Source of the DNA: Bacteroidota bacterium
Lineage (GTDB): Bacteria; Bacteroidota; Bacteroidia; Bacteroidales; VadinHA17
Direction of reading: 5' to 3'
DNA: 64,000 nucleotides
Assembly: GCA_011050615.1 (NCBI GenBank)
Contig: DRFJ01000054.1
Location: 1 to 64,000 of the forward strand
Positions 6,432 through 45,717 of the stretch are shown piece after piece; position 1 is the first letter of the stretch; each line of letters begins with the position of its first letter. The notes beneath the pieces were generated by a model. That model saw only the letters and a program-made list of their open reading frames with translations, was not told the origin of the DNA and ran no database searches. A program made the position numbers and the translations under genes.

Positions 6432-6665
6432 ATGAAAATAAGGGTATTATTATTTGGCGTACTGGCAGAGGAGGCAGGCAGGCAGGAGCTTGAGCTGGAT
6501 AATGTCAGCAGTCTTGATGGCTTAAAGAAACAAATGATAGCGCAATATCCGTCTTTTGCGGATTATAAGTTCAATATCTCAGTGAATCACGCCCTTGCCC
6601 GGGGGAATAAGAACTTACACGAAGGAGATGAGGTAGCCTTGCTGCCACCCTTTGCCGGGGGCTAG
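6432..6665 (+). CDS. moaD: Molybdopterin synthase sulfur carrier subunit MoaD
   Basis: 77 aa ubiquitin-like protein ending in LLPPFAGG. Confidence 0.88.
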   Translation: MKIRVLLFGVLAEEAGRQELELDNVSSLDGLKKQMIAQYPSFADYKFNISVNHALARGNKNLHEGDEVALLPPFAGG

Positions 6666-6700: not shown

Positions 6701-7135
6701 TCAATGTTGCCACTGATGGGTGTCATCATCGAAGATTTCCTTTTTCCAGACAGGAAAATTCTCCTTGATCATTTCAAGTACATGCCTGCAGGCCCGTGTG
6801 GCATGGTCGCGGTGGCCGGCTGTGACCATTACAAAGAGTGACAGTTCACCTGCTTTCACAATACCTGTTGAATGGACAATTACCACATCTTTGACATCAC
6901 TGAAGGCTGTCATAATGATTTCCTTGATTCTCAGCGTTTCCTTTGCAACCATTTCCTCATAGGCCGAATATTCGATTGCTCTCACAGTGCGGTCGTCAAC
7001 CATATCGCTGCGCACCTGGCCGAGAAAGACCGAATGGGCTCCGGCTGATTTGTCGTCAGAGGTTTTGTTAAAGTATTCTGCAATATGTGAAGTTTTTACC
7101 GGTCCGGGTATCAGGATCATATTTCCCATGCTCAT
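6701..7135 (-). CDS. moaE: Molybdopterin synthase catalytic subunit MoaE
   Basis: SVFLGQVRSD...AIEYSAYEEMV...VMVTAGHRDHATRACRHVLEMIKENFPVWKKE. Confidence 0.9.
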   Translation of the reverse strand: MSMGNMILIPGPVKTSHIAEYFNKTSDDKSAGAHSVFLGQVRSDMVDDRTVRAIEYSAYEEMVAKETLRIKEIIMTAFSDVKDVVIVHSTGIVKAGELSLFVMVTAGHRDHATRACRHVLEMIKENFPVWKKEIFDDDTHQWQH

Positions 7136-36622: not shown

Positions 36623-37390
36623 TTATTTAATCTCTTTAATCAACTTGTTCCGTGGGTCAGGTATAACTTTAAATAAGTAATGTTTATTGTTTAATATATT
36701 GAAAATTAAGACTTCCCCGGATAATACTTTTCCGGTCTGGAGTATTATTTTAATCACTTCGTTGGCCATATAAGTCCCGGTTATACCTGGCAATACATTT
36801 ATCATGCCAGTTTCCGATGGGTGAGGATTATTGTTTTCTTTTTTTAGTTCAGGGTTATAGCACCTGTAGGTAGGGCCGTCATTATAATTAAACACGGAAA
36901 CCTGGCCTTCAAACTGGTAAATGGCCCCGTGCACCATTGGTTTGCCTGCGATCAGGCATGCATCATTCAGTATGTACCGGCTTTCATAGTTATCGGTTGC
37001 ATCCACTATTATATCATAGTCACGGACGATTTTCAGGACATTTTCCTTTCCGAGCTTTATATTCAGTATCCGGACACTGACATGATTATTCAGTTCATTA
37101 AGTCTGATTTTGGAGATAATGGTTTTAAGTTTGCCTATGTCATCAGCACGGTAGAGGATCTGTCGTGGCAGGTTGGTTTCATTCACGAGGTCAAAATCCA
37201 CCAGTCCTATATTTCCTATTCCTGCAGCGGTAAGGTACTGAAGTACGGGGCAGCCCAGTCCGCCTGCGCCTATTACGAGGACTGAGGAATTCTTGAGTTT
37301 TACCTGCCCTTCCTCTCCTATAACGGGAAGCCTAATGTGCATCATATAGCGCCTCTTTTCACTGTCGGAGAGGTAGTCTGTGTTTACCAT
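36623..37390 (-). CDS. HesA/MoeB/ThiF-family adenylyltransferase (E1-like)
   Basis: VLVIGAGGLGCPVLQYLTAAGIGNIGLVDFDLVNETNLPRQILY; IIVDATDNYESRYILND. Confidence 0.9.
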   Translation of the reverse strand: MVNTDYLSDSEKRRYMMHIRLPVIGEEGQVKLKNSSVLVIGAGGLGCPVLQYLTAAGIGNIGLVDFDLVNETNLPRQILYRADDIGKLKTIISKIRLNELNNHVSVRILNIKLGKENVLKIVRDYDIIVDATDNYESRYILNDACLIAGKPMVHGAIYQFEGQVSVFNYNDGPTYRCYNPELKKENNNPHPSETGMINVLPGITGTYMANEVIKIILQTGKVLSGEVLIFNILNNKHYLFKVIPDPRNKLIKEIK

Positions 37391-38613: not shown

Positions 38614-39684
38614 TTATTTTTTTCTGGATTTATGGTCGAATTTAATCAGTTCGCTTGTGAAGCTTATATTTTTAAGTTTGCCGTCTTCAGTTTCCCCTGT
38701 CTGAAGGTCCATGTTCCATCCAAGGAGGCTGTTAACCCCCTTGATTCCGGCATTGGCTATCTCCCATGCCCTGAGATGTTCTATACCGGGATCCTCTTCG
38801 TCGAGTATCTGTTTTCTGAAGTGGTAGGCCAGGAATTCCCGTATTGACATTTGAGCAGTATCAGCGGATTCCGGAGGCAGGACTATATCATAGGGTTTTA
38901 TTACTGCCAGCAAATAAGGGACCTGTTTATTATCGAGATTTATTTCTTCACGTATTGGGAGATGGCTCAGGGGCATCCAGGTTTCCTTTTGTCCGGTAGT
39001 ATTTTCATCCTTCATAATTTCTGATGTCTTGACTGTCCCGGCAAGCTGCATGTCTGTCCGGGTGCTTAAATGCCTTGGTGTTTCATCTGTAAGGTCAAGC
39101 CTCGGAGTTTTTTCCTGGCTTGCCTGCCCGCTTTCTTCTTCAGGGCTGTAGGCTGTCAGGGTACTATCATCGATACTAACTGCCTGCTGTTGGTCAAATA
39201 TAAGGTAGAGACCAGTCATGACAGCTATTGAAGCAGCTATTGAGAGTGCAGTAAGAATTATTCCCGTGATTCTTCTACTTTGAGGTATTTTAAGCAGTGA
39301 TGACTTTTCAGGATATATTGTATTATCGGCTTCAAGCCTTATTTTTTCATATATGCCGATAATTTTGCGGAAGCGGGGATCCGATTTTTTAAGCTCAATA
39401 ATTTCCGGTTTTTGCTTTTCGTTGAGATCATTTTCGCAAAGTGCGATTGAAAAATGTTCAACCTGTTCATTTGTTAACTGTTCAGGTGTGCGCAGGAGTT
39501 CACTTTTATCGAATTTACTCTGTTCATCGGGGCTTAGGAATAATCCCTTGTACTCTTCAAATTCAGGCATAAGATCAGGATTGTCAGCCAGGAAATCCAT
39601 GAGCACTTCAGCCTGGAAATCGTCGAGCTGACCATCGTAATAGTCAGTAATCCATATTTGATAATTTTGCCTGTTTATTATCAT
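38614..39684 (-). CDS. Membrane-anchored protein downstream of an ECF sigma gene (putative anti-sigma-type)
   Basis: N-terminal cytoplasmic segment ITDYYDGQLDDFQAEVLMDFLADNPDLMPEFEEYK, single TM GIILTALSIAASIAVMTGLYLIF; adjacent to sigma-70 gene. Confidence 0.6.
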   Translation of the reverse strand: MIINRQNYQIWITDYYDGQLDDFQAEVLMDFLADNPDLMPEFEEYKGLFLSPDEQSKFDKSELLRTPEQLTNEQVEHFSIALCENDLNEKQKPEIIELKKSDPRFRKIIGIYEKIRLEADNTIYPEKSSLLKIPQSRRITGIILTALSIAASIAVMTGLYLIFDQQQAVSIDDSTLTAYSPEEESGQASQEKTPRLDLTDETPRHLSTRTDMQLAGTVKTSEIMKDENTTGQKETWMPLSHLPIREEINLDNKQVPYLLAVIKPYDIVLPPESADTAQMSIREFLAYHFRKQILDEEDPGIEHLRAWEIANAGIKGVNSLLGWNMDLQTGETEDGKLKNISFTSELIKFDHKSRKK

Positions 39685-39685
39685 T

Positions 39686-40165
39686 TCACACCAGTACTTC
39701 CATTTTACCTATCATTTTGCGCAGGGCCATCCTTGCCCTGTATATATTTATCTTGACCTGTGATTCCGATTGTCCTGTTATCTCACCTATTTCGCTGTAG
39801 CTGTATCCTTCATAATCTCTCAGCAGTATTACCGATCGCCATGACTCATTGAGTCTGCCAAGGCATTGATGTAGTATTTCATTCAGGTCGGAATAGGTCT
39901 GTTCGTGCATTAGTTCTGGTGGTGAGTCAACGGAGACAAGCCTCTTTCCCTTTCTCAGGATGTCAATCATTGAATTATGCGCAGTAGTAAACAGCCAGGC
40001 TTTTGCCTTTACGTAGTCTATTTCCTCAACACCTATCCACAGTTTCTCATAGCAGTCCTGAACCACATCCCTTGCTTTGTCCTGATCACCCATGCTTTTC
40101 AGGACGAAGCGGTATATGCGGTCAGAGTATTCTTCAACTGCTTTATTATACTCCTGTGGTGTCAT
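39686..40165 (-). CDS. ECF-type RNA polymerase sigma factor
   Basis: MGDQDKARDVVQDCYEKLW, WRSVILLRDYEGYSYSEIGEITGQSESQVKINIYRARMALRK. Confidence 0.92.
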   Translation of the reverse strand: MTPQEYNKAVEEYSDRIYRFVLKSMGDQDKARDVVQDCYEKLWIGVEEIDYVKAKAWLFTTAHNSMIDILRKGKRLVSVDSPPELMHEQTYSDLNEILHQCLGRLNESWRSVILLRDYEGYSYSEIGEITGQSESQVKINIYRARMALRKMIGKMEVLV

Positions 40166-40797: not shown

Positions 40798-42546
40798 TCA
40801 GTTGGCAGGATCACGGATAAGATCAGATGCTTCCTGTGCCGAACACCCGGAGATTTTTATTATATGGGAGTTCATAATTCCCCATTTCTTTATTACCTCA
40901 TCCAGGAATTCATTTCTCACGGTTAAAATAATAATTCCATCCTTGTTTGTCAGGAGCCCTGAAAGGCATGGTGCCCATCCTTTGTTTTCAAGCTCCAGCC
41001 TTCCCACCTCATCTATCACAGTGATTGTATCAGCACTCTTGCTGGACAGTATTTTATTACCCAGCCCGATGGCTGCCGGGAATATGGAGTACCTACCTAT
41101 CTTCTCCAGTCCATCATTCCGGTTTATTCTAAGGAAAGCTACCCTCTTCTTTGATTTAATGCCGACCAGGTCATAACCTCTTGTTTCTTCATTGACCATA
41201 ACTCTTTCCGTAAGTATTCCGTCAACCTGGAAATTATTCCGTGTTAGTATTTCGGCAAGCTTTTTTGCAAAGCTTGTTTTTCCCTCGGCCAGCGAACCGG
41301 TAATAATAATAACTTTCGGATTTTCAGTGTTTTTTTTCTGTAGTTCATGTAAACGTGTACCTGCATTGGCAATGACACCTGAGAGTGCGGTAACAGGTTT
41401 TTTGACAATTGTCCGGAAACCGGGAATGCTGGAAATGAAGAGAGGAAGGCTTTCAACTGCCAGCTCAAGGGCAAGCGGAAGATTTCTGAATGACGTCCTG
41501 GTAAAGAAATTCCTTATTACAGGATTATAAAGTTCAGTTCCAAGGACAGAAAAACCTATAATAATAATGGCAGCCCTGAAATTCATACGTAAGCCTACAA
41601 TTAATCCCTGTCTTAAAATATCCTCTCCTTCACGGGCCCTGGTAAAAACGAATGAAGTGATCAAAGTGATCAGTATAAAGAACAGCCAGAACCTTGGGTT
41701 CATCAACTGGCGCATTGCCCGTCTGTATCTCACTATCCATAAGCTGATTATCACAGGTACTGTTACGAGCCAGACAATCAGGGATGAAAAATTGAGCACA
41801 AGCATGGCGGCTGTGAGGAGAGAAAGGTTAACAAAAAGCCATACCAGGGAGTATGAAGTATTCTGATCAGGGCCATTAAAGCTGTTTTTAATTGTGATCT
41901 TAGGGTCAGAATGAATTTTTGCCTCAGTTTCAGTTGCTATCCTGCGGCCAAGCCTGAGCCCTGTAACCGCAGTGATAATGCCCAGTATGACATCAGCAGC
42001 CAGCAGGACCAATAAAGGCAGCCAGGCCATGTCAGCCCGGATACCAGTTTGCTTTTCAGCCATGTCAGCCAGACCGGCATATACCTCGATTATATTTGTC
42101 CCATAGAATACTATCAGTGTTAAGACTCTCTGTACAAGGCTCCACGACATTGCAAGAACAGCACCGGTAATATAGCCTGCAAAAGTCCGCCCCATCAGGC
42201 TCACTGAAAATTCCATCAGCAGTGCCTCGCTCATTATTGCAATCATTGGTCCGAATATCAATGCACTGGGCGATAAGGTTTTCATCAGGGCACAGATTAA
42301 ACCGGCACGCCAGAATAGACCTTTTTCATTCCATTTATAGCTTATGGAAATAAGTAAGATTATGCCTATGGCAGTTAATACACTGCCGCTAAATGGTACT
42401 CTCAGATTATGGAGGAAGCTTCCTATAACTATCTCGGACGCAGCCCACATGCTTCCTGCAACGGAAGCCTTAAGCCACCTGGGATCTATGTCAGTCTTCG
42501 GGGTGTATGGTTTAGCTGATGTCATTTTTAAGAAATCAAGGTACAA
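40798..42546 (-). CDS. Three-module protein: ECF S-like membrane domain + T-like membrane domain + THEP1-type P-loop NTPase
   Basis: 582 aa; WRAGLICALMKTLSPSALIFGPMIA (S-like); LRMNFRAAIIIIGFSVLGTELYNPVIRNFFTRTSFRNLPLALELAVESLPLF (T-like); ITGSLAEGKTSFAKKL Walker A and TITVIDEVGRLELEN Walker B. Confidence 0.65.
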   Translation of the reverse strand: MYLDFLKMTSAKPYTPKTDIDPRWLKASVAGSMWAASEIVIGSFLHNLRVPFSGSVLTAIGIILLISISYKWNEKGLFWRAGLICALMKTLSPSALIFGPMIAIMSEALLMEFSVSLMGRTFAGYITGAVLAMSWSLVQRVLTLIVFYGTNIIEVYAGLADMAEKQTGIRADMAWLPLLVLLAADVILGIITAVTGLRLGRRIATETEAKIHSDPKITIKNSFNGPDQNTSYSLVWLFVNLSLLTAAMLVLNFSSLIVWLVTVPVIISLWIVRYRRAMRQLMNPRFWLFFILITLITSFVFTRAREGEDILRQGLIVGLRMNFRAAIIIIGFSVLGTELYNPVIRNFFTRTSFRNLPLALELAVESLPLFISSIPGFRTIVKKPVTALSGVIANAGTRLHELQKKNTENPKVIIITGSLAEGKTSFAKKLAEILTRNNFQVDGILTERVMVNEETRGYDLVGIKSKKRVAFLRINRNDGLEKIGRYSIFPAAIGLGNKILSSKSADTITVIDEVGRLELENKGWAPCLSGLLTNKDGIIILTVRNEFLDEVIKKWGIMNSHIIKISGCSAQEASDLIRDPAN

Positions 42547-42598: not shown

Positions 42599-42997
42599 TT
42601 AACCGTGGGAGTTGACGGTATGAATGTGATATATGGCCATTTTCTGGCTGAACTGGCCCCACAGGTAATATGCCGTATCGTCATCATCAGTAAATACAGC
42701 CGGGTCAATCTGGTTATATCCACAGGTATTGATTGGCTGCCCTTTTCCGAAAGGGCCGGGGGGATCCATGCCGTCTATGGCCACTCCTTCGGCATTCAGC
42801 CTGTCGGGATGGCAGTAATAGAGGCAGTATTTGCCATTTCTTTCTGCACAGTCCGGGGCAAAAAGAAGGCCGTTGTTATAGGGAACGGCAATATATGCTC
42901 CGGGCGGGCTGATGGGGTTCTGTGCCGGTAGCAGCAGAAAAAGAGGCACACAGAAAATGAATATACACAGGGATCGTTTCATACCATGGAAAAACAT
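42599..42997 (-). pseudogene. Internally deleted and truncated GH43-type glycoside hydrolase
   Basis: Signal peptide then PPGAYIA joined to LLFAPDCAERNGKYCLYYCHPDRLNAEGVAIDGMDPPGPFGKGQPINTCGYNQIDPAVFTDDDDTAYYLWGQFSQKMA; only 132 aa. Confidence 0.75.
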
Positions 42998-43019: not shown

Positions 43020-45425
43020 CTAAAAGTTTGCTCTCAGTGAAAGTATGAAATTCCTTCCCGGGGCGGAGATACCGGAAGTATACGGCCGGTAGCGCCTGTC
43101 GCTAATGTTTTCTACACCTGCTGAAATGGCAAACACATCCGTCACTTCATAGATAGCTTTCATATTGAGGGTGCACCAGGCAGGTGAATAATTATTCCCG
43201 TTGGTGTCTTTGGCATAGATTTCATCCTTGCCTTTTTCTTCTTCCGGCAAATCTTCATACTTGCGCTCTCCCTGGTATTCTGCATAAAATTTGATATGCA
43301 GCCGGTCGGCCTTGTAATTAAGGCGAGTGATACCGAATAAAGGAGCCGCATGGCGTGAAGGGCTTGTACTTCCGTCATCCAGTTCTTCTTCTCCTTTCTG
43401 GAAATTAATATCTGAAGAAAAACTGAAGCCTGCAGGTAATTTCACCTCAAGGCCTGCCTGTATTCCGTAAACTCTTGCCAGGGCAGCGTTCTGTAAAGCC
43501 TGAACCTTGCTCATAATACCGTCATACATGATACTGTCCTGCCCGTTAAGCCGGAAATCCCTTCGGACCAGGGCATTTTTAAGGATGGTGTAATATCCTG
43601 TAAAATCAATTTTTACTACATCATCAAAAACCTTGGCCAGGCCCAGATCGAAGTTATAGGCATATTCTGCCTGCAGGTCGGGATTAGGAACCACAACCGC
43701 ACCGGGTTCGGAATCAAAAATTTTACCCAGGTCATCAACATTCGGCGAACGGAAAGCCGTTCCGAAATTGGCACTTATGACCAATGATTCTGAGGGTCGG
43801 TATACGCCTCCCAGGCTTCCATTAAGGGCACCGTCATTGATGCTTGCAGTGGTGAAAGGGAAGGGATAAAATGTATTATCGAATTCAGCGTTAAGTAAAA
43901 AATGATTATACCTCAGTCCTGTCTGCAGGGTAAGTTTTTCTGAGAGCCTGTATTCATCATTGATGTAAGCTGCGATGGAAATCCATGAAGATTGGGGGTA
44001 TCTGGAAGGACCGGGAACACTTGTCCCGGTCGAAATATTTTCATCTATACCGGTGGATGTTACATCATTAAGAACGTATTCAACACCGTAGTAGGCTGTA
44101 TTCCTTTTACCTGTTGACTTAATGAGGTCCAGGTTAAGGGAATAAGCCACTACTTCCTCAATCCGGATACGCCGGCCGTTACTGTTAAGTGACCTGTCAA
44201 TACGGCTTTCCTCAAATGATTGCTGAGCCAGGCTAAGTGTTATCTGGTCATAAACGAAATTATTGGTCATATGGTTAACAGACAGCTTATTCATCATCCA
44301 TTTTTGCGGGCCATAATTCCATTCGGCATACCTGGCGGTCCCGTTGCGCACCCTGTTATGCCTGTCATACCGTCCGTAGGGTGAAGTTTCGGAATAGTTG
44401 AAGCCATATTGAAAATCCCATTCTTCACCCGGGGTAAACCTAACTTTCTGCATAAGGTTAACCTGGGAATAAGCTGACGGGATTTGAAGCAGGGGATTTT
44501 CCTGCCTGATTATCCTGTCTGTGCTGTCCTGCCTTTGTACATAATAATCTTTAATATAATCCTCAGGGCCATGTCTCCCCTGGCGGAGATGGTCATAATC
44601 CCAGCTGCTGAAACTCGTTACCATAGCCCACCTGTCCCAGCCGACATTAATGTCGAAGTGTCCGGTTTTTTCATTATTGGCCGATGAATATCGTGTTACA
44701 GCCTTACCTGTTATCAGAGGCTCCCCGGTAATTGCCAGTTTTGGGACGAGGGTCTGGAAACTCATTACCCCCCCGATGGCATCACTGCCGTATATTACCG
44801 GTCCGGGACCAAAGAGTACCTCGGTGTTTTCCATGGCAAAAGGATCGAGGTTAATGACATTCTGAATATTACCACTCCTGAAAATAGCGGTATTCATCCT
44901 TACTCCGTCAACGGTATATAATAACCTGTTGGTTGCAAATCCCCTGATCATTGGGCTTCCTCCTCCCTGCTGGCTTTTCTGGATAAAAACCTTACCTGAA
45001 ATGCCTAAGAGATCAGCAGCGGTCTGCATGTTCTGTAATTCCACCTCCCTGGGCGAAATGGATATGACTTTAGCAGGCACATTGTCTGTTGACTGTCTCC
45101 AGCGTGTAGCAGAAACAACTATTTCCTCAAGGTTGATATTTGAAACTTCAAGGTATACCTGGAAGGATTCTGATTCAAGTTCTGAAAAACTTTTAACGAC
45201 TGTTCTGTATCCAAGAGTCCTGATTTCAATCCTGTCTGCATCCCTGAAATTCGATATATCAGCCTGCCCCTTTGCGTTTGTGGTGGCAAAGGCCTTTGGG
45301 CTTTCGCTTATAAGTGTAGCCAACTCAATTGCTTTGTGACTATCACTATCCCTGATGGTTAATGTCTGGCCCCGGGCAAAAATGCCAATACTCAGAAATA
45401 AACACAATATGAATGTATTCTTCAT
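43020..45425 (-). CDS. TonB-dependent receptor with carboxypeptidase-regulatory-like N-terminal domain (heme/haemoglobin-receptor-like motifs)
   Basis: Start at MKNTFILCLFLSIGIFARGQ (45423-45425); plug QKSQQGGGSPMIRGFATNRLLYTVDGVRMNTAIFRSGN; GTAFRSPNVDDLGKIFD and NPDLQAEYAYNFDLG. Confidence 0.9.
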   Translation of the reverse strand: MKNTFILCLFLSIGIFARGQTLTIRDSDSHKAIELATLISESPKAFATTNAKGQADISNFRDADRIEIRTLGYRTVVKSFSELESESFQVYLEVSNINLEEIVVSATRWRQSTDNVPAKVISISPREVELQNMQTAADLLGISGKVFIQKSQQGGGSPMIRGFATNRLLYTVDGVRMNTAIFRSGNIQNVINLDPFAMENTEVLFGPGPVIYGSDAIGGVMSFQTLVPKLAITGEPLITGKAVTRYSSANNEKTGHFDINVGWDRWAMVTSFSSWDYDHLRQGRHGPEDYIKDYYVQRQDSTDRIIRQENPLLQIPSAYSQVNLMQKVRFTPGEEWDFQYGFNYSETSPYGRYDRHNRVRNGTARYAEWNYGPQKWMMNKLSVNHMTNNFVYDQITLSLAQQSFEESRIDRSLNSNGRRIRIEEVVAYSLNLDLIKSTGKRNTAYYGVEYVLNDVTSTGIDENISTGTSVPGPSRYPQSSWISIAAYINDEYRLSEKLTLQTGLRYNHFLLNAEFDNTFYPFPFTTASINDGALNGSLGGVYRPSESLVISANFGTAFRSPNVDDLGKIFDSEPGAVVVPNPDLQAEYAYNFDLGLAKVFDDVVKIDFTGYYTILKNALVRRDFRLNGQDSIMYDGIMSKVQALQNAALARVYGIQAGLEVKLPAGFSFSSDINFQKGEEELDDGSTSPSRHAAPLFGITRLNYKADRLHIKFYAEYQGERKYEDLPEEEKGKDEIYAKDTNGNNYSPAWCTLNMKAIYEVTDVFAISAGVENISDRRYRPYTSGISAPGRNFILSLRANF

Positions 45426-45717
45426 TCTCCAAAATTTAAAGTTATTAAATGATGTCCCGGCAGAAAAGGCCATGGAACGATTATTAGAAGAAAAAAAATG
45501 AGATTCAGCAAAAACGGGGTGGCAGTTAAGGTGGAGGAAAGGCAAGTGAAATATAACAGTCAATATGGAATAAATTTTTTTCTTCAAAACCGGCAATGTT
45601 AACGGGCAAATTTATAAAATAATTAAGCCTTAAAACAGGTTTTTTAACAGCACCAAATCCCATGCCAGCTTTTAATTTCAGGGGAAGATATTGTTTTGCC
45701 GGCCCGGGAGGAGGGAT

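Follow-up and report, generated by a model that had tools for sequence, protein, structure and literature searches.

Described systems for scarce cofactors include the ECF vitamin transporters (EcfS/EcfT/EcfA), which unite substrate and energy parts in one system. PnuC with NadR combines a facilitator with a P-loop kinase and a nucleotidyltransferase. Molybdoenzymes are served by the ModABC, WtpABC and TupABC importers. The molybdenum cofactor (Moco) itself is, in the prevailing view, synthesized de novo, and C. elegans is an exception (PMC9793310). A 2018 survey reported several hundred prokaryotes that have molybdoproteins without a complete Moco pathway, most of them also without known Mo transporters, and could offer for these orphans only the suggestions of synthesis genes yet to be recognized, enzymes that work without Mo, or gaps in the sequence (PMC6147048). 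Our term-based search, which covered open-access papers, found none on Moco uptake or a Moco importer in bacteria. In this study, we analysed a stretch of 64,000 nucleotides from a Bacteroidota bacterium (the window), which encodes a membrane protein fused to a THEP1-type NTPase, and compared it with these systems.

The fusion protein and its surroundings in the window

A 582-codon ORF occupies 40798-42546 on the minus strand, where the plus strand carries many stops. Its listed start is a TTG at 42546, and an ATG seven codons in fits the family alignments. The true start is probably this ATG at 42525, which gives 575 aa (40798-42525, minus strand) and from which residues are numbered here. 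The features discussed are as follows.

40798..42525, minus strand: fusion protein, two membrane modules and a THEP1 domain (ORF; homologs align from the ATG)
41917..42483, minus strand: N-terminal membrane module, model helices 15-203 (AlphaFold; alignments; profile match to clade 2)
41341..41868, minus strand: second membrane module, model helices 227-394, with invariant R317 (AlphaFold; alignments)
40801..41316, minus strand: THEP1-type P-loop NTPase domain, PF03266 (Pfam; PDB 2i3b by sequence and fold)
41275..41298, minus strand: Walker A, GSLAEGKT (sequence)
40993..41019, minus strand: Walker B, VIDEVGRLE (sequence)
43020..45596, minus strand: TonB-dependent receptor, upstream on the same strand (Pfam and NCBIfam; blast)
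36623..37390, minus strand: MoeB/ThiF-type adenylyltransferase of the Moco pathway (NCBIfam PRK08762 MoeB, 288.7 bits, below the cut-off of 449)
6432..6665, plus strand: moaD-like gene (TIGR01682, E 9e-13, below cut-off)
6701..7135, minus strand: moaE-like gene (PF02391, E 5.6e-26, over cut-off; NCBIfam)

The earlier note had described a 582-aa ORF with two membrane modules followed by a soluble NTPase, and this architecture is real, with the strand now fixed as minus and the start likely at the ATG. AlphaFold modelled the membrane part alone, from a 101-sequence alignment, with pLDDT 86 and pTM 0.81 (helices 15-203 and 227-394), and the full-length model was fair (pLDDT 77.7, pTM 0.59). The N-terminal module, of 6-7 helices, is the most conserved part of the fusion. 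Pfam NTPase_1 (PF03266) matches residues 413-548 (E 3.6e-18; 66.4 bits against a curated cut-off of 23.9), and human NTPCR (2i3b) matches the domain by sequence (7.8e-5) and by fold (1.1e-6). Another PDB match, 1ye8, is titled 'UPF0334 kinase-like protein'. Judged by sequence and model, the C-terminal domain is a clear THEP1/NTPCR member, as the note had thought. The Walker A and the DE-containing Walker B motifs that it had read are both intact in the translation, the ABC signature LSGGQ is absent, and the single chain is joined to a THEP1-type NTPase rather than to an ABC ATPase.

The assignment of the two membrane modules to ECF S- and T-components, which the same note had made by eye, was not supported. 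A Pfam scan of the 101 homologs gave no CbiQ and no ECF S family among the matches listed. The family profile matched none of the PDB chains at E<=10, EcfT and CbiQ chains included, and a Foldseek search of the membrane model against the solved folds of the PDB returned no match at E<=0.001. For S-components, whose families diverge strongly, the comparison consisted of these Pfam, PDB-profile and Foldseek searches taken together. When EcfT was aligned with the second module by hhalign, the probability was 0.3-0.6%, like that of unrelated membrane-protein controls, against 50-69% for the positive control of EcfT with CbiQ; the segments came from solved PDB chains, and the EcfT profile drew on just two to three sequences. 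A typed EcfT-like bait recovered real EcfT/CbiQ chains from the PDB and matched nothing in plasmids. The NTPase, being THEP1 and free of LSGGQ, is not an EcfA-type ABC ATPase. ECF S/T homology was dropped after Pfam, the PDB profile, two Foldseek searches and hhalign were all negative.

The window organism retains Moco pathway genes of its own, with homologs of MoaC, MoaD, MoaE, MoeB and MoeA. The MoeB-like gene lies about 3.4 kb downstream on the same strand; it is the nearest Moco gene in the window and the only one nearby, and its counterparts (cluster c28) also accompany the fusion in L031 and L057, the two further loci retrieved from the genus. In all three same-genus loci, a small sigma-factor-like gene and the next gene follow the fusion (38614-40165, minus strand, in the window). 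The TonB-dependent receptor is a possible, though uncertain, outer-membrane partner. In G003, a genome of the same genus, it is missing from this position, and it is only 20-30% identical (blast) to receptors adjoining the family elsewhere, and it was not accepted as a proven partner in view of this weak similarity to operon-linked receptors. Between the receptor and the fusion lies a GH43-like ORF of 132 aa (42599-42997, minus strand) that covers only positions 64-151 of the 288 in the profile and looks like the remnant of a truncated gene. An Rfam search of the window found no riboswitch, and hence no clue from this source.

Relatives of the fusion protein and their neighbouring genes

Homologs, full-length or of the membrane part, were present in 28 of 60 related genomes, and 495 encoding stretches were found in a contig collection with one genome per species. 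Judged by this spread of homologs, a chance ORF is excluded. Of these stretches 80 were kept, nearly all titled as Bacteroidota, with one labelled Candidatus Methylomirabilis and one Acetofilamentum; viral contigs contained no relatives. Lutibacter sp. B1, Maribellus luteus and Maribellus sp. CM-23 are carriers that have been cultured. Residues W27, E31, G35, H39, N40, P44, K82, S85-P86-S87, P93 and others are invariant in the 101 sequences, and W27, E31, H39, P44, K82, P86, P93 and R317 are unchanged across two distant clades. From this pattern, E31, H39, P44, K82, P86 and P93 are candidates for a ligand-binding site. Four genomes (G007, G018, G042 and G049) have a split form, with the membrane part as an independent gene and THEP1 encoded separately elsewhere.

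The survey of genomic partners that the earlier note had proposed revealed an enrichment of molybdenum-related neighbours. Such a gene was present in 32 of 105 family loci and in none of 40 background stretches of 20 kb from carrier genomes (tblastn, p=6.7e-6), and the count rises to 58 of 105 when DUF364 is included. Among the neighbours are MobA, molybdopterin oxidoreductases, ModE-type regulators (TIGR00637, E 3.4e-22, below cut-off), MoeA/MogA, XdhC, MocA and DUF364. A MobA-like gene lies directly upstream of split forms in L048, L049, L051 and L052; a molybdopterin oxidoreductase operon adjoins the split form downstream in L048 and L052 and is further off in L051. DUF364 has been tied to the transport of molybdate, tungstate and other rare metals and to pterin-like substrates (PMC2954201). 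A DUF364/DUF4213 gene is directly upstream in 41 loci, often with an 8-bp overlap with the start of the family gene, and is probably its functional partner (e.g. L032, L036). The order ModE-TonB-DUF364-fusion forms an operon in L032, L119 and L122. In G055, MoeA and a MogA-like gene directly follow the fusion while MoaC and MoaE are missing; as far as its gene content goes, this genome has Mo insertion genes without molybdopterin synthesis genes.

Subunits of aldehyde oxidoreductase or xanthine-dehydrogenase type, XdhC and MocA-like genes occur in further loci. A DVU_1551-type aldehyde oxidoreductase cluster, with an XdhC-like factor, a MocA-like transferase, a radical SAM protein and an Fe-S oxidoreductase, lies near the family gene in L134 (7718-20993) and similarly in L071, L090 and L107. 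Stand-alone THEP1 genes stand beside xanthine-dehydrogenase-type subunits and XdhC in L059 (2-4658) and L060 (4033-9633), a link between free THEP1 and Moco. In L036 (3592-5742), a TonB receptor shares an operon with DUF364, the fusion, MoeA and MogA. The best NCBIfam match of this receptor is the PQQ receptor PqqU (150 bits, far below cut-off), which perhaps hints at cofactor uptake.

A distant relative of about 330-360 aa was present in 8 of 197 genomes of a class-wide sample (a contig end truncates one of the copies). Profile comparison of this second clade with the N-terminal module gave a probability of about 97% (E 1e-11 to 1.8e-10). MoaC is absent in all eight of these genomes and present in 97 of the 197 in the sample (p=0.004). 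The gene after the membrane gene encodes a THEP1-MobA fusion in L146, L147, L149 and L150, and in L148 it is followed by separate, adjacent THEP1 and MobA genes. FdhD is near in L146, L147, L148 and L150, and a molybdopterin oxidoreductase in L148 and L150. Pfam was the basis for the proteins of L147 and L148, the oxidoreductase of L150 and the THEP1 of L152; the other assignments come from reading the sequence. In the clade 2 fusion, the N-terminal domain has its match in NTPase_1 (1.6e-4, slightly under the cut-off) and not in MobB. On these domain assignments, THEP1 is joined to the membrane protein in the main clade and to MobA in clade 2.

Family members and genes of cofactor synthesis

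The presence or absence of MoaC, MoaE and MoeA was clear in the 60 related genomes (MoaC matched at about 1e-50 or not at all). Sixteen carriers of the family lack MoaC (G004, G007, G011, G013, G015, G018, G020, G024, G030, G034, G042, G045, G047, G048, G049 and G055), and all 16 also lack MoaE. MoeA is absent from 15 of them, the exception being G055. All 16 have Moco enzymes of the DMSO-reductase and/or xanthine-dehydrogenase type, predicted from PF01568 and/or PF02738 domains, with Mo use of the PF01568 proteins assumed. Where completeness reached 90%, Moco enzymes were present in 12 of 12 MoaC-less carriers and in 2 of 15 MoaC-less non-carriers (p=5.2e-6). Counted by genus, which controls relatedness only partly, the figures were 9 of 9 and 2 of 12 (p=1.9e-4); several of the genomes are incomplete MAGs. 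Moco enzymes occur in 30 genomes of at least 90% completeness, which comprise 16 with MoaC, 12 with the family only and 2 with neither. When stand-alone THEP1 was counted too, at all completeness levels, Moco enzymes were found in 20 of 20 against 4 of 19 (p=1.5e-7). The protein, the loss of synthesis and the Moco enzymes thus match in these genomes.

Loss of synthesis does not accompany the family everywhere, since MoaC is present as well in 12 of its 28 carriers. The idea that the family simply follows MoaC was dropped on the same count (12 carriers with and 16 without), and it was from this lack of tracking that the idea of salvage arose. The hypothesis followed the MoaC result and was then tested by searching these 60 genomes for Moco enzymes, MoeA and MoaE; the second clade was discovered apart from this profile. 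Two genomes are exceptions, both at least 90% complete, MoaC-less and devoid of the membrane part: G014 has one weak Moco-enzyme match, and G054 has a nitrate-reductase-type gene. G054 is 99% complete and lacks MoaE as well; its locus (L064, 609-9522) carries nitrate-reductase-type genes and, after them, a TonB receptor and a free-standing THEP1. This genome either breaks the pattern or has a variant system.

Proposed cofactor salvage, its alternatives and known systems

Carriers without MoaC and MoaE presumably make no molybdopterin, yet they have Moco enzymes, and therefore the pterin must come from outside. The family is the best correlated candidate for its acquisition, and MobA or MocA is retained in MoaC-less carriers where the neighbourhood shows them. 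We consider it rather probable that the fusion is the inner-membrane part of a salvage importer for Moco or molybdopterin. The earlier note had proposed uptake of a micronutrient, which is plausible in kind; the molybdenum-cofactor link, our main result, was missing from it. Transport by the fusion, its exact substrate and the role of THEP1 are what we infer here, and transport rests on genomic context because the membrane model matches no solved transporter. In the proposed mechanism, a TonB-dependent receptor, which is part of the operon in some relatives, would bring the compound through the outer membrane, and the membrane modules would bind Mo-molybdopterin or metal-free molybdopterin and move it inward. 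The THEP1 domain would spend NTP either in driving uptake or in phosphorylating the pterin, which would then be trapped and become a substrate for MobA or MocA, adding the nucleotide. In the window organism, uptake would supplement its own Moco synthesis.

Because MoeA is usually absent, the Mo-loaded cofactor is the likelier substrate, and metal-free molybdopterin is possible in G055. Retention of MobA argues against import of the finished dinucleotide. Precursor Z (cPMP) was rejected as a substrate, since all 16 MoaC-less carriers lack the MoaE, and 15 of them the MoeA, that it would need. Free Moco is highly labile in air (PMC9370521), so that salvage would depend on a supply that is stable or released from protein.

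The alternatives considered are not mutually exclusive, and the two that concern THEP1 in uptake are versions of salvage. In one version, a membrane facilitator would work with THEP1 as a salvage kinase for dephospho-molybdopterin or dephospho-Moco, yielding the product that MobA uses. MobA requires the terminal phosphate of MPT, and a kinase is paired with a nucleotidyltransferase in NadR and RibF. THEP1 is joined to the transporter in the main clade and to MobA in clade 2, where L148 has the two as adjacent genes, and it resembles small P-loop kinases, as the title of 1ye8 has it. However, THEP1 owes its name to NTP hydrolysis and its kinase activity is putative. This version is put forward tentatively, as a fair way short of probable. 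It is also possible, if on the unlikely side, that NTP hydrolysis by THEP1 drives a conformational cycle in the manner of EcfA, for any substrate but most likely Moco or MPT. Here the NTPase is directly joined to the membrane protein with Walker A and B intact, and in ECF transport, in principle, a module that hydrolyses NTP likewise powers the uptake of micronutrients (PMC4820897). The occurrence of THEP1 as a separate gene in the four genomes with the membrane-only form, its junction in clade 2 to MobA, a cytosolic enzyme, and the lack of similarity to EcfT coupling regions speak against such a drive. Given the THEP1-MobA fusion, a kinase step appears slightly more attractive. That the protein is a diverged true ECF transporter with S and T subunits, as first read, deserves little credence: the order of two membrane modules and then an NTPase agrees with it and R317-E331 is loosely EcfT-like by eye, but sequence, profile and fold tests were all negative and an ABC ATPase is absent.

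Other readings dispense with pterin uptake. A molybdate, tungstate or Mo-chelate importer feeding ordinary Moco synthesis would agree with the ModE-type regulators and DUF364 in some operons and with the pathway genes of the window organism. However, the MobA and MoeA/MogA neighbours point to a pterin, a ModB/WtpB/TupB-type permease is already present in the window genome and in many MoaC-positive relatives, and the oxyanion alone would be unusable to the 16 carriers that lack MoaC and MoaE. A simple molybdate importer, considered on the basis of ModE and DUF364, was demoted on this last ground and is now improbable. Nor do we favour a role outside transport, in which a membrane-anchored THEP1 would serve molybdoenzyme maturation as a MobB-like adaptor or as a sulfuration or insertion factor. 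Next to MobA, THEP1 takes the position that MobB has in other bifunctional proteins, and FdhD is a neighbour; an adaptor, however, needs no strongly conserved intramembrane module, and the pterin source of carriers without MoaC and MoaE would be left unexplained. We regard this role as distinctly improbable.

If Moco or molybdopterin is indeed salvaged in this way, the family is a concrete gene candidate for the puzzle of the orphan molybdoenzymes and could answer it; the organisms concerned may be Moco auxotrophs fed by their neighbours. Moco would then be a shared 'vitamin' of anaerobic communities, THEP1 proteins would gain a physiological role, and the family might be turned into a means of supplying Moco or molybdopterin where cells are unable to make it. 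A dedicated, vitamin-like Moco route in bacteria, built on a membrane family for which no known relative is detectable and with THEP1 as a molybdopterin/Moco salvage kinase feeding MobA, goes further and is, in our estimate, possible but doubtful. If this stronger reading is true, whole genera run molybdoenzymes without any Moco synthesis.

The logic of salvaging a ready-made cofactor is already familiar, and what would be new is the substrate, the pathway and the membrane family. Solved THEP1/NTPCR homologs (1ye8, 2i3b) are small single-domain proteins, whereas here the domain is joined to a membrane protein or, in clade 2, to MobA. With the ECF vitamin transporters the fusion shares the idea of one system with substrate and energy parts for scarce cofactors, but it differs in having no detectable EcfT/CbiQ homology, S-family match or ABC ATPase. 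The ModABC, WtpABC and TupABC importers serve the same enzymes, and ModE-type regulators are found near the fusion too; the fusion's unit contains no ABC proteins, and the Pfam matches of the fusion include neither an ABC ATPase nor a ModB-type permease domain. PnuC with NadR is alike in the proposed logic, although its membrane family is unrelated (Pfam scan), and here the cargo would be a pterin cofactor and the kinase is putative. C. elegans, which takes up dietary Moco, likewise lives partly on the ready-made cofactor, but it is an animal and the Moco is protein-bound (PMC9793310).
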